Shown here in pieces: positions 8,877 through 12,307 of a stretch of 50,627 nt of DNA; position 1 is the first letter of the stretch; every line of letters starts with the position of its first letter. The notes under the pieces were generated by a model. The model saw nothing but the letters and a program-made list of their open reading frames with translations, was not told the origin of the DNA and made no database searches. The stretch spans positions 1 through 50,627 of the forward strand of contig NZ_AVPT01000018.1 in assembly GCF_000768335.1 (NCBI RefSeq), in the 5' to 3' direction. The DNA comes from Lysobacter arseniciresistens ZS79 (GTDB lineage: Bacteria; Pseudomonadota; Gammaproteobacteria; Xanthomonadales; Xanthomonadaceae). A program made the position numbers and the translations under genes.

Positions 8877-11078
8877 CTAGCCCCTCCCCTTTCTTGTAAT
8901 TGCTTGGCGCCTTAATATTTCCATCCGCTCGCGCACGCGGCTCGCTTGCCAGCCCAAATCAAGTGACGCATTGGTTTGCCCAACGGCCCCTTCCTTTGGC
9001 ACGCCGTTTCCGAACAAAAAGAGTCGCGTGTGATGCGCAATTGCTGAATCCCGCCCGACAATTCCCGCTGCGAACTCCGGTACGCCGGGCCACATTGCGA
9101 TAGCGCGAAGCGCCGGACGCATGAACCGGGCGGGCCCTCGGGCCATTAGATATCCTGCGCGCTTGGTGAAGCGCGCTGCGGAGATGGAAAGTCGTCTGAC
9201 CGCACGTCCAGGCGCGGTTATCCGCCAGGACGTGCTACCAAGAATGGAACGCAGCTCGGTATCCAAGCGCAAGATCTCCTGCGATCTAGCTGCGAGCTCA
9301 ACCAGCACGCGCGTCATCTCCGCCTGTCGGGTGGAGGACTCCAGTTCTTTACGGCGCAGCTCGCTGCGGGCTGAATCCAGCTCGTGGGCCGCCACTTGGA
9401 GTCTCTCATCCATGTCACCAAGTTCGTCCCGCGCGCTCTCGAGAGCACGTCCTTGGTCAACCAAGACCGCCTCGCGGCGCTCGTTCTCTTGGCGTAGGAA
9501 ATCGATAGTCGATTGCAGCTGCACACGCTCGCACCGTTCCCGCTCACCCGCGTTCTCGATGAGTTGGCGGTAATGCACCAGGGCTCCCTCACGACGCTCG
9601 TTCTCTTCGCGAAGGTACTCAATAGTCGCCTGCAGTTGTGATCGCTCGCCCGATTCACGTCGCCCCGCCTGCTCGAGAAGTAGCCGATGGTCCGCCAGCG
9701 CTGCCTCTCGTAGTTCATTCTCGTGTCGAAGATGGTCGATTAAGTCATGGAGCCGTTGGCGTTCCGCCAGCTCGCGCGCGCCGGAGGCTTCAATGCCTTG
9801 GCGAAGCTCAATCAATGCCGCTTCCCGTCGCTCGTTCTCTTGCCGAAGGTACTGGACGCTCGTCTGCAAGCGCTCTCGCTCAGCACCAAAGTTGGACCCT
9901 ACAGTTTCAAGGGCTTGACGGTGCTGAACCAGCGCCGCCTCGCGACGTTCATTCTCCTGCCGGAGATACTCGATGGTCGCCTGCAGGTGCTTTCGCTCAG
10001 CATCAAGCGCTGACTCGACGCTCGTAAGAGACTGACGCTGCTCGACGAGCGCTGCTTCACGGCGTTCGTTCTCCTGCTGAAGGTACGCGACAGTCGCTTC
10101 AAGTCGCTCACGCTCAGCCGATTCCCGCTGTCTCTTCTCATCAAGGAGCGTACGAAGTTCCTGAAGAGCGGTCTCGCGTCGCTCGTTCTCGCTGGTCAGG
10201 TACTCGATCGTCTGCTGGAGCCGATTGGGGTCAAGCGAATCGCGCCCTTCTAAGTCATGGAAGCGCTTCCTCAGATCCGCTAGCGCTGCTTCTCTGCGTT
10301 CATTCTCATCTTGAAGGTAACCCGCTGTTGAACGCCATTGGTCGCACTCAACCACGGCGCTCTTAGCATGCTCGAGGTCGCGTCGCAGGTGGAGAATATC
10401 CGAGCGTATGAAGTCATCAAATACGTTGGGCGGACGAAGAAAGGCGGCGTCGAGAGAGGCTTTCTCATCAGCCACGTAGAATCGGTTCAGACCATCGTCG
10501 TAAACAAAGTGATAGCCACGCCCGGTTAGAAGCGGCTCCCAAGCCTCATAACTAGACTTCTCGGAGAGCGGCTCCGTTGCTTCGACCAGTACGATCCATG
10601 GACGCAGCTTCTTCAATGAAAGGCCGCGCAACACGCTCAACTCCGCACCTTCGCAGTCTACTTTGAGAAAATGCACGACATCGACCGCCGCTTCCTCGCA
10701 GATTCTATCCAAGGTGTCGCAGGGCACTATCTGTTCAGTGACCTGGAATCCTGCGTCAGCATGTCTCTCTGCAAAATCACTCACGGTGGTCGAGAGCCCC
10801 GTAGAGTCCACGTTAAAGAACCGCAGGCTCCCTTCAACGTCGGAAGCAGCGACCATCAGGTTGAGGTCGTGGGGTCGCTCGTCCTCCAGCTTGCTGAACC
10901 ACTGTTCCGACGGTTCAATGTTGATTCCCCGCCAACCAACATCGTAGAAGGCCTTGGTTACCGAATACTCGGTCGGATCCTGCGCACCTACGTCGATATA
11001 GAAACCCTTCGACACGTCGCGTAATGCCCTTGCGAGCATTACGTCCTCAAAGTTCTGCGCGTATGAAACGAATGTCAC
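8877..11078 (-). CDS. FkbM-family methyltransferase fused to a tandem-repeat coiled coil (possible O-chain terminator/ruler)
   Basis: A 733-aa protein. Residues 1-215 are a FkbM-type SAM methyltransferase: VSYAQNFEDVML start, FYIDVGAQDP (SAM motif I), DTLDRI, and FLKVDCEGAE. Residues about 254-565 are eight tandem 39-aa units, each opening YLxxENERREAAL, almost free of proline and glycine and predicted to form one long coiled coil. The C-terminus has the STSWRITAPGRAVRR motif and basic amphipathic segments suited to membrane or enzyme docking. The GTG at 11078 is preferred because it overlaps the wzt stop as GTGA and gives the usual family N-terminus; an upstream ATG lies at 11111. A methyltransferase plus coiled coil beside a carbohydrate-binding Wzt matches WbdD logic (terminal modification and length ruler). 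No kinase domain is present. The ruler role is inference. Confidence 0.85.
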   Translation of the reverse strand: MTFVSYAQNFEDVMLARALRDVSKGFYIDVGAQDPTEYSVTKAFYDVGWRGINIEPSEQWFSKLEDERPHDLNLMVAASDVEGSLRFFNVDSTGLSTTVSDFAERHADAGFQVTEQIVPCDTLDRICEEAAVDVVHFLKVDCEGAELSVLRGLSLKKLRPWIVLVEATEPLSEKSSYEAWEPLLTGRGYHFVYDDGLNRFYVADEKASLDAAFLRPPNVFDDFIRSDILHLRRDLEHAKSAVVECDQWRSTAGYLQDENERREAALADLRKRFHDLEGRDSLDPNRLQQTIEYLTSENERRETALQELRTLLDEKRQRESAERERLEATVAYLQQENERREAALVEQRQSLTSVESALDAERKHLQATIEYLRQENERREAALVQHRQALETVGSNFGAERERLQTSVQYLRQENERREAALIELRQGIEASGARELAERQRLHDLIDHLRHENELREAALADHRLLLEQAGRRESGERSQLQATIEYLREENERREGALVHYRQLIENAGERERCERVQLQSTIDFLRQENERREAVLVDQGRALESARDELGDMDERLQVAAHELDSARSELRRKELESSTRQAEMTRVLVELAARSQEILRLDTELRSILGSTSWRITAPGRAVRRLSISAARFTKRAGYLMARGPARFMRPALRAIAMWPGVPEFAAGIVGRDSAIAHHTRLFLFGNGVPKEGAVGQTNASLDLGWQASRVRERMEILRRQAITRKGRG
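9384..10319 (-). repeat. Eight in-frame 117-bp tandem repeats encoding the coiled coil
   Basis: Eight consecutive 39-codon units begin at tyrosine (or His/Phe) positions about 117 bp apart, each with the core ENERREAAL; unit 6 reads ENELREAAL and unit 8 ENERREAVL. The period of 39 equals four heptads plus one hendecad, compatible with an uninterrupted coiled coil. Units are diverged in their second half (for example ALDAERKHLQATIE against GARELAERQRLHDLID), so this is an old expansion rather than a recent identical array. Unit number could still change by recombination. Confidence 0.9.
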
Positions 11079-12307
11079 GGCCGCGCGATCTCGATCTCTG
11101 GTGCCATCCATGAGCTACCGATGAAGACTGGCAGGTTGCTGTTATGCACGTTGAAGACCAGCGCCAAATCACGCCACTCATAATTATTCTGGAGATGCGT
11201 GTCCGCGCTGACCAGCGCAGTTGAGATCGAGTAACTACCGGGCCCGAGATTCATGGCGAACTCGATCTTGAACTGAAGCAACTCACCGGCCGCCACATCT
11301 AGCTGGGCCTGACCTGTGTGATGCGTATTCGTGCCGAAAACGACTTGCCCCAGGCGGTCTTTCAGCATATAGCCAAGAACCAATCTTGGAATAGATGACA
11401 GAGCCCTTACCTCCACAAGGAGGCAGGCTTTCTGGCCTACCCCCATGAACTCAACCTCGGTCCCCGAAACATCAAGGAGCGAAATACGCTCTACTACCGC
11501 CTCACCGGTACCCGAGATCGTCTGAACTCGACCATCAGAACGGCGGTTGGTGCGAACAGTCACGCTCTCCTTCTCGGCGATGATCGCGTTGTAGAAGTCC
11601 ATGACCGCTTGTGGTTCGCCGTCTTTAACCAACACGCCCTGTTCCAGCAGGATCGCCCTGCTGCAGAGCGCCTGCACTGCACCACGGTCATGGGAGACTA
11701 TCAGTAACGAAGTCCCGTCCTTCTGAAATTGGCGGATCCGCTCAAAGCATTTGTGCTGAAAGTATGCATCACCAACAGACAAGGCTTCGTCCACGATCAA
11801 GATATCCGGACGGAAGGCTGTTGCAACGCTGAATGCCACACGCATCTGCATGCCGCTCGAATAGGTCCTCATGGACTGTTCGAAGTACTCTCCAATCTCG
11901 GCAAAGTCCTCGATCTCATCAATTCGGGAATGAATCTCCTGGGCGGAAAATCCCATGAGACCGGCAGCATGATATACATTCTGGCGGCCCGTCATGTCCG
12001 GATTGAACCCCATCCCGAGTTCAAGAATTGCGGCCACGCGGCCACTCAGTTCAATCGATCCCTCGGTAGCACGCAGCACACCGGTGATCAGCTTCAGGAG
12101 CGTGCTCTTGCCGGCGCCGTTCTGACCAACAATCCCGATCGCCTCACCGCACCCCATCGCAAACGACACGCCACGCAGGACCCAACTCTCGTTTTTCGGC
12201 GTAAACCGAACACCGGCCCACGAGGCGAATCGATGCCATTCACTCTCGTAATCCCGATAAGCCTTCCCTAGATTTTCAACTCTCAACAGATCAACTTGTT
12301 CTTTCAC
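11075..12307 (-). CDS. wzt: O-antigen ABC transporter ATP-binding protein with C-terminal carbohydrate-binding domain
   Basis: A 410-aa ATPase subunit that powers export of undecaprenyl-linked O-polysaccharide. The nucleotide-binding domain (about 1-245) shows Walker A GQNGAGKS, signature YSSGMQMR, Walker B ILIVDEAL and the switch histidine in IVSHD. Residues about 265-410 form the extra Wzt C-terminal beta-sandwich, which in O9a-type systems binds the terminal modification of the finished chain. The frame is open far upstream, but the true start is the GTG at 12307, overlapping the wzm TGA as GTGA; this gives the normal VKEQVDLLRVENLGKAY N-terminus. The C-terminal extension next to a methyltransferase implies that export is gated on a methylated non-reducing end. 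Confidence 0.93.
   Translation of the reverse strand: MKEQVDLLRVENLGKAYRDYESEWHRFASWAGVRFTPKNESWVLRGVSFAMGCGEAIGIVGQNGAGKSTLLKLITGVLRATEGSIELSGRVAAILELGMGFNPDMTGRQNVYHAAGLMGFSAQEIHSRIDEIEDFAEIGEYFEQSMRTYSSGMQMRVAFSVATAFRPDILIVDEALSVGDAYFQHKCFERIRQFQKDGTSLLIVSHDRGAVQALCSRAILLEQGVLVKDGEPQAVMDFYNAIIAEKESVTVRTNRRSDGRVQTISGTGEAVVERISLLDVSGTEVEFMGVGQKACLLVEVRALSSIPRLVLGYMLKDRLGQVVFGTNTHHTGQAQLDVAAGELLQFKIEFAMNLGPGSYSISTALVSADTHLQNNYEWRDLALVFNVHNSNLPVFIGSSWMAPEIEIARP

Follow-up and report, generated by a model that had tools for sequence, protein, structure and literature searches.

A FkbM-type methyltransferase on a 39-residue-repeat coil as a candidate O-antigen chain terminator and ruler in Lysobacter arseniciresistens ZS79

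We focus here on a gene of Lysobacter arseniciresistens ZS79 whose product joins a FkbM-type methyltransferase to a long repetitive coil and a basic tail, and which lies in a lipopolysaccharide (LPS) locus of contig NZ_AVPT01000018.1, analysed over positions 1 to 50,627 (the window). A sequence-only reading had singled out positions 8877–12307, which take in this gene and that of the adjoining Wzt, and had proposed that the terminator logic of Escherichia coli WbdD is rebuilt here on a different methyltransferase family. Converging comparative evidence supports that proposal: gene order, coil-dependent linkage to the C-terminal domain of Wzt (Wzt_C), a coil-end motif and tail, a methyl-cap pocket, homology of the polymerase to WbdA, and fusions that unite FkbM head, coil, motif and glycosyltransferase (GT). 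The protein is most likely a WbdD-like terminator of an ABC (ATP-binding cassette)-transporter-dependent O-antigen and, with less assurance, the ruler of its chain length.

The FkbM-coil protein and its locus

The protein, its parts and its immediate partners are as follows.

8877..11111, (-): FkbM-coil-tail protein, 744 aa as an open reading frame (ORF); proposed chain terminator and ruler
10392..11066, (-): FkbM (Methyltransf_21) head, residues 16–240, from PF05050, alignment, model and fold matches
9432..10367, (-): eight 39-aa coil units, residues 249–560, from repeat spacing, periodicity and model
9237..9431, (-): non-repeating coil, residues 561–625, in a helix (491–625) of the model
9204..9236, (-): coil-end motif STSWRITAPGR, residues 626–636, from an alignment of 28 proteins and a motif model
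8880..9203, (-): basic tail, residues 637–744, with predicted helices of high hydrophobic moment
11075..12307, (-): Wzt, ABC ATPase with a putative cap-reading Wzt_C domain; probable start GTG at 12307, frame open to 12772
12304..13098, (-): Wzm, ABC-2 permease (PF01061)
5414..8875, (-): 1153-aa polymerase of two GT4 modules, homologous to E. coli O9 WbdA over both halves

The head is a FkbM methyltransferase by family. A Pfam search places PF05050 at residues 40–202 (E 2.6e-24), curated cut-offs are exceeded (PF05050, 86.7 versus 22.7 bits; TIGR01444, 74.9 versus 37.7 bits), and no kinase family was reported by the Pfam search of this protein. The alignment shows that the head keeps DVGA, IEP and D-x-EG-x-E elements, which we take to be those of the S-adenosylmethionine (SAM) site. 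It is modelled confidently, with blocks of predicted local distance difference test (pLDDT) scores mostly above 90 (AlphaFold2, 28 sequences), and a Foldseek search with the model returned class I methyltransferases, led by a fibrillarin homologue (1e-4) and followed by COMT and others; by sequence, no convincing solved relative of the head was found (best E 0.62).

The coil is built of eight units marked by ENE[RL]RE at residues 269, 308, 347, 386, 425, 464, 503 and 542, seven strict ENERRE and one ENELRE; all seven spacings are exactly 39. Shuffling excludes the repeats as a product of chance or low complexity: self-identity at lag 39 is 0.41 against 0.168 for the best of any lag in 1000 shuffles, and the hydrophobic (LIVMFYW) periodicity over residues 239–622 peaks at 3.54 (39/11) with a power of 22.7, whereas none of 500 shuffles exceeded 10.7. 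This period corresponds to 11 turns per unit, a pattern such as four heptads and one hendecad would give. The units agree with one another at 64%, 66% and 35% of first, second and third codon positions, and they thus appear to be old and to have been maintained as protein; because the DNA of the array has diverged, Tandem Repeats Finder, run at score 50 on the whole window, does not list it. In the model, helices cover residues 237–625, with breaks near 288–294, 406–408 and 480–490, at low confidence. The single protein of FkbM head, eight units and basic tail that the sequence-only reading had described is thereby borne out.

The true start is probably a GTG at residue 12 (11078), which would give 733 aa. 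This codon overlaps the Wzt stop as GTGA, and the GTG at 12307 overlaps the Wzm stop likewise; both starts were chosen on the codons themselves, and since they overlap the preceding stops, coupled translation is suggested. The protein adjoins, again as first read, a Wzt with an extra C-terminal domain (PF14524, 7.6e-33) and the two-GT4 protein, which is 39% and 46% identical to the two halves of O9 WbdA. The resulting order, wzm-wzt-[FkbM-coil]-polymerase, is the wzm-wzt-wbdD-wbdA order of E. coli O9 (HS) and O8 (IAI1).

Linkage to Wzt_C, the coil end and the methyl-cap pocket

The presence of a coil on the FkbM protein goes together with the presence of Wzt_C upstream. Matches to the FkbM-coil protein at 1e-10 occur in 25 of 395 family genomes, and among the 10 own-genus genomes listed only that of ZS79 itself matches. 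We read the 20-kb neighbourhoods of the 24 other family matches: 24 of the 25 proteins have a coil and all 24 stand behind Wzt_C, whereas the sole coil-less one (L053; locus labels are ours) does not. A contig scan contributed the best 80 of 555 relatives, chosen for head similarity, and class and phylum samples a further 32 neighbourhoods. These comprise all 12 non-own FkbM matches of the class sample and 20 loci of the phylum sample (31 matches in 28 genomes, including ZS79 and G739, the latter fetched from the class sample), namely all 6 remaining strong matches and 14 of 23 weaker ones picked by hand. The 137 loci, less 5 duplicates and 12 with under 2500 bases upstream, leave 120 unique informative loci. 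A coil was called by a composition rule of our own (a proline-free stretch of at least 50 aa) rather than by a published predictor, and gaps were measured from the start of the FkbM domain, since over-long ORF starts hid true neighbours; this replaced a count from listed ORF starts that had given 23/24, 40/58 and 4/8 with coil and 0/1, 2/10 and 0/22 without, in the family, contig-scan and class/phylum sets, respectively.

On this basis, Wzt_C lies upstream in 67 of 87 coil-bearing and 2 of 33 coil-less FkbM loci (n=120; Fisher p 5e-13, which is overstated, related sequences not being independent). Within the class and phylum samples the figures are 4/7 with coil and 0/22 without, and the gap between Wzt_C and FkbM is below 300 bp in 61 of 69 cases. 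As for the two coil-less loci behind Wzt_C, L078 is cut by a contig end, and L108 carries a repeat tail rich in arginine and proline, perhaps the product of a shifted frame. L107 and L108 are deltaproteobacterial loci in which FkbM with 14-aa repeats follows Wzt_C; the tails seem to be frame-shifted, and the coil-end motif is found on a distinct ORF immediately downstream. In the Legionella loci L082 and L087, FkbM and a coil of 28-aa repeats stand behind a borderline Wzt_C and end in no recognised coil-end motif.

The coil ends in an element, S-x-SWR-x-T-x-P-x-R, whose S, W, T, P and R columns are invariant in 28 aligned proteins (ZS79 included) that had been chosen for having it; S-x-S-W-x-x-T stands at the coil end of all 23 coil-bearing family proteins other than the frame-broken L031. 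A hidden Markov model (HMM) built from 21 distinct xanthomonad FkbM-coil junctions matches O8 WbdD (34.0 bits, 2e-9) and O9 WbdD (best domain 22.7 bits, 7e-6), scaled to 3019 sequences, its best reversed decoy reaching 0.44. O8 WbdD has the full motif, SRSWRITQPLR, and O9 WbdD its first half, in SRSWRMTKGYR. The stretch that begins with the motif and runs to the C-terminus measures 119, 118 and 117 aa in ZS79, O8 and O9, with net charges of +16, +20 and +15; among the 69 motif-bearing FkbM-coil proteins without a fused GT, counted with duplicates, its median is 112 aa and its charge positive in all 69. The C-terminal region of WbdD is described as containing an amphipathic helix and a polymerase recruitment site (PMC11231755). 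The ZS79 end, helical in the model, carries the features of such a polymerase- or membrane-recruiting end, the binding itself being putative. In five relatives (L042, L062, L083, L105 and L133), FkbM, coil, motif and GT are joined on a single polypeptide.

The head, on the other hand, was tried as a WbdD homologue and rejected: BLASTP against O9 WbdD gives a best E of 0.34, the Pfam families differ, the O8 WbdD head does not match the FkbM model, and whole-protein BLASTP against WbdD yields chance-level scores only, one of them over the motif.

The partner Wzt points to the nature of the cap. Its closest solved relative is Aquifex aeolicus Wzt (8dku, E 1.2e-80). The C-terminal domain of that protein binds 3-O-methyl-D-mannose, and the O-chain of A. 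aeolicus is capped by 3-O-methyl rhamnose or mannose (PMC9445017). The Aquifex pocket residues Arg304, Ala348, His355 and Trp362 are Arg, Ala, His and Trp in ZS79 and in E. coli O8 Wzt; in O9 Wzt the same positions are Leu, Gly, Pro and a gap. O8 WbdD is described as methyl-only, and the O9 cap as a methyl phosphate (PMC3482155). Overall, ZS79 Wzt_C is 50% identical to that of O8 Wzt (E 2e-49) and only weakly similar to that of O9 (E 3e-4). All four pocket positions (Arg/Lys304, Ala/Ser348, His355, Trp362) are conserved together in 66 of 70 unique Wzt_C domains linked to FkbM-coil proteins, as against 5 of 27 others, a count confounded by the relatedness of the domains and by the alignment of distant ones. 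The 27 derive from 39 class-sample matches, 9 of them without a locus; ZS79, L191 and L197 were omitted from the remaining 30, the last two for want of a match to the Wzt_C model used. The pocket pattern fits a plain methyl cap, such as would be written without a kinase.

Among known systems, O8 WbdD is a closer model than O9 WbdD. The O8 system shares with ZS79 the wzm-wzt-terminator-polymerase order, the lack of a kinase (PMC3482155) and the full coil-end motif with its similar tail, and O8 Wzt_C has the ZS79 letters at Ile299 and Leu300 as well as at the four pocket positions; pocket letters differ at Thr346, Met353 and Val380, the head, by annotation a class I SAM-dependent methyltransferase, does not match FkbM, and the protein is shorter (425 aa) and without 39-aa repeats. 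The O9/O9a system shares the gene order, a coil, the SRSWRMT junction, the length and charge of the end and a polymerase (WbdA) homologous to that of ZS79, whereas its terminator combines a methyltransferase of another family with a kinase, lacks the second half of the motif and has a coil of about 132 aa against 388 in ZS79, and its Wzt_C lacks the methyl pocket. The ZS79 protein thus has an N-terminal domain that is a candidate cap enzyme by family, an extended coil by sequence and model, and a partner Wzt_C, as WbdD-type terminators do; it has neither the methyltransferase of the WbdD family proper nor the O9-type kinase. The sequence-only reading was right about the absence of a kinase, but this is no novelty, O8 WbdD being itself a methyltransferase-only terminator (PMC3482155). 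What is new is the FkbM head, a coil that is the longest of 75, the existence of relatives with one, three, about five and about seven units, and a motif common to unrelated heads.

More distant parallels exist. Klebsiella pneumoniae O7 ORF6 and O12 WbbB carry terminator, coil and polymerase on one chain, like the FkbM fusions, with other heads and, in O7, GT2 polymerase modules (PMC11231755); the ZS79 polymerase is a separate protein. For A. aeolicus the comparison covers the transporter. WxcB, also of a xanthomonad LPS locus and WbdD-like, is described as resembling WbdD in both its methyltransferase and its kinase domain, and not FkbM; its loss leaves Xanthomonas campestris B100 without O-antigen and makes no difference to LPS in X. 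euvesicatoria, polar effects being possible (PMC4878081). Among the open-licence papers listed for FkbM with coiled-coil, O-antigen, Wzt or lipopolysaccharide we found no description of a FkbM terminator, two of them naming FkbM in gene lists, and a text search with motif strings returned only papers unrelated by title.

The motif itself is also found beyond FkbM proteins. Among 185 class genomes it occurs in 27 and Wzt_C in 37, and both occur in 14 where 5.4 would be expected (p 5e-5; 13 of 26 with p 1.4e-4 when the ZS79 genome is left aside); neighbourhoods were fetched for 20 of the 29 class-sample motif matches. Behind 5 of 27 class-sample Wzt_C domains it ends non-FkbM proteins, with heads of Methyltransf_11/25 (L169, L173), Methyltransf_24/CmcI-like (L176, L177) or no Pfam match (L178). 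Plain GTs of the FkbM-coil loci (L033, L034, L046) bear it, as do proteins starting GMHRSGTS (L200, L202, L203, L212), two of which, L200 and L203, lie beside Wzm/Wzt without Wzt_C. The GMHRSGTS proteins look P-loop-like, and we take them to be sulfotransferase-like; it is possible that they are capping sulfotransferases. The motif was thus rejected as proof of a terminator. Given its presence in GTs and next to Wzm/Wzt pairs that lack Wzt_C, it appears to mark a plug of glycan-assembly proteins generally, not of terminators alone.

Coil length, repeat number and neighbouring genes

The distance from the end of FkbM to the motif is 388 residues in ZS79, the longest of 75 unique motif-bearing proteins (median 121; next 330 and 303). 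In O9 WbdD the kinase ends at 459 (PMC3482155) and the motif stands at 592, which gives a coil of about 132 aa. With a rise of 0.1485 nm per residue, and if fully helical, the whole ZS79 coil would span about 58 nm and that of O9 WbdD about 20 nm; the figure of about 46 nm first given for the repeat block alone is arithmetically right (312 × 0.1485 nm).

Relatives differ in the number of ENERRE units: one each in L032, L057 and L058, three in L056, three and two in two frames (about 5) in L031, and six plus a likely degenerate copy (about 7) in L048, against eight in ZS79. Since the units match in DNA at 93% in L031 and at about 78–80% in L048, the array seems to lengthen, and its units to age, in steps of 117 bp. 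The L031 array (about 10334–10845) lies in a FkbM-coil frame that is broken, by sequencing error or real inactivation. L048 (8794–10806) has the appearance of a natural chimera: in head and Wzt_C it comes closest to the L045–L049 group, whose other members are without the repeats, its repeats are of the ZS79 kind, and its tail and polymerase are nearest to those of ZS79, L032, L057 and L058.

Co-variation of the parts was assessed in 53 loci that have all of them, 44 after removal of near-copies. In the family set (18 loci), head and Wzt_C co-vary (0.58, p 0.0005), as do tail and polymerase (0.33, p 0.0025). The 29 contig-scan loci give 0.15 (p 0.06) for tail and polymerase, 0.24 (p 0.0005) for head and polymerase and 0.16 (p 0.0055) for head and tail; pooled, the 44 loci give 0.44 (p 0.0005) for head and Wzt_C and 0.16 (p 0.02) for tail and polymerase.

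The remaining genes of the locus point to the sugar.

4316..5353, (-): Gmd, GDP-mannose 4,6-dehydratase (TIGR01472 above cut-off)
3414..4373, (-): short-chain dehydrogenase/reductase (SDR), probably Rmd (GDP-D-rhamnose); no equivalog above cut-off
13095..14537, (-): GT4 glycosyltransferase of the same LPS locus, from the family search

Together, Gmd and Rmd would supply GDP-D-rhamnose and hence a D-rhamnose-containing chain. The last 130 or so residues of the polymerase (about 1006–1137) recur near the C-termini of other sister-locus proteins (for example L031, L032, L034 and L054) and are perhaps a carbohydrate-binding module. A cystathionine-lyase-like gene at 14547–15725, so named from its sequence, adjoins the locus, in keeping with the place of xanthomonad LPS genes between metB and etfA (PMC2238763). 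The GC content is about 53–61% over positions 1–14500 and mostly near 70% elsewhere in the window, a contrast that a horizontally acquired island would be expected to show. The ORF at 95–889 has, we presume, a transposase-like look.

Proposed mechanism, alternatives and meaning

We propose that the protein works much like O8 WbdD. The FkbM head would place an O-methyl group on the non-reducing terminus of the nascent chain, probably a 3-O-methyl on D-rhamnose or D-mannose, while the helical coil would keep the head as far as about 58 nm away from the membrane end. There, the S-x-SWR-x-T-x-P-x-R element and the basic tail would anchor the protein to the membrane, the WbdA-like polymerase or both. 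A chain not yet long enough to meet the head would go on growing; chains that meet it would be methylated, would not be extended further, and would be recognised by the Wzt_C pocket and exported. Both the terminal methyl and the control of length by the coil are inferred from comparison.

Several observations weigh against this proposal. The structure prediction that the sequence-only reading had suggested does give helical repeats, but the single-chain model has pLDDT values of about 45–80 in the coil, three breaks and a predicted template modelling (pTM) score of 0.46, so that any oligomeric state, and the straightness of the coil, are conjectural. Wzt_C is missing upstream of 20 of the 87 coil-bearing FkbM loci at the 1e-5 threshold; L082 and L087 fell just short of it (i-Evalues 3.9e-5 and 2.4e-5), and the other 18 stand. 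Nor is the coil-end motif exclusive to terminators, GTs and other proteins having it too: of the 27 class genomes in which it occurs, 13 gave no Wzt_C match, and O9 WbdD carries its first half only, followed by KGYR. Finally, head and Wzt_C do not co-vary in the 29 contig-scan loci (0.007, p 0.47), and gene adjacency alone could yield the co-variation of the family set.

One question is whether the terminator is also a ruler. The head might cap the chain and license its export while length is set by enzyme stoichiometry, the repeat number drifting near-neutrally by slippage; the 117-bp units do expand readily, as the L031 array attests, coil length varies widely among the 75 motif proteins, and how far the polymerase site is occupied is a further factor in E. 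coli O9 (PMC11231755). We regard this as unlikely, though a serious contender, since the ZS79 units have kept their protein sequence while third positions diverged, so that the extra length seems selected as protein, and since in E. coli O9 the length of the chain is determined by that of the coil (PMC11231755).

A further doubt is whether the enzyme caps at all. FkbM is a broad family, and with the motif also borne by plain GTs, tethering alone is conceivable; the protein could then be an ordinary decorating methyltransferase, acting along the chain, with coil and tail as a mere tether and length set otherwise. We consider this improbable: coil-less FkbM proteins seldom stand behind Wzt_C, and the partner Wzt domains retain the pocket for a terminal methyl. 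That the coil merely scaffolds large glycan-enzyme assemblies, unrelated to length or capping, draws on the diversity of motif-bearing proteins in such loci, some without Wzt_C; the place directly behind Wzt_C, the O8-like pocket and the WbdD-like tail make it very improbable indeed. The capping and, less surely, length-setting terminator thus remains our preferred reading.

We would tentatively go further, with somewhat more doubt than conviction, and suggest that S-x-S-W-[RK]-x-T-x-P-x-R and a basic tail of about 115 aa form a general membrane-end plug of glycan-assembly rulers, on which unrelated heads (FkbM, Methyltransf_11/25, Methyltransf_24/CmcI-like, methyltransferase-kinase and perhaps P-loop sulfotransferases) are mounted, that the cap writer moves together with the cap-reading Wzt_C, and that chain length is tuned by the gain or loss of 39-aa (117-bp) units.

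If the preferred reading is true, the terminator-with-ruler principle would extend to an unrelated methyltransferase family present in several bacterial lineages, and a short sequence signature would be at hand for finding candidates irrespective of the chemistry of their caps, although plain glycosyltransferases can bear the motif too. Because exact 39-aa units differ in number between relatives, the relation of coil length to sugar-chain length becomes testable in natural strains: loci with related polymerases and tails and one (L032, L057, L058), about seven (L048) and eight (ZS79) units would form a natural length series, which L056 and L031, with three and about five, would extend. In ZS79 itself, a ruler some three times that of WbdD predicts longer chains.

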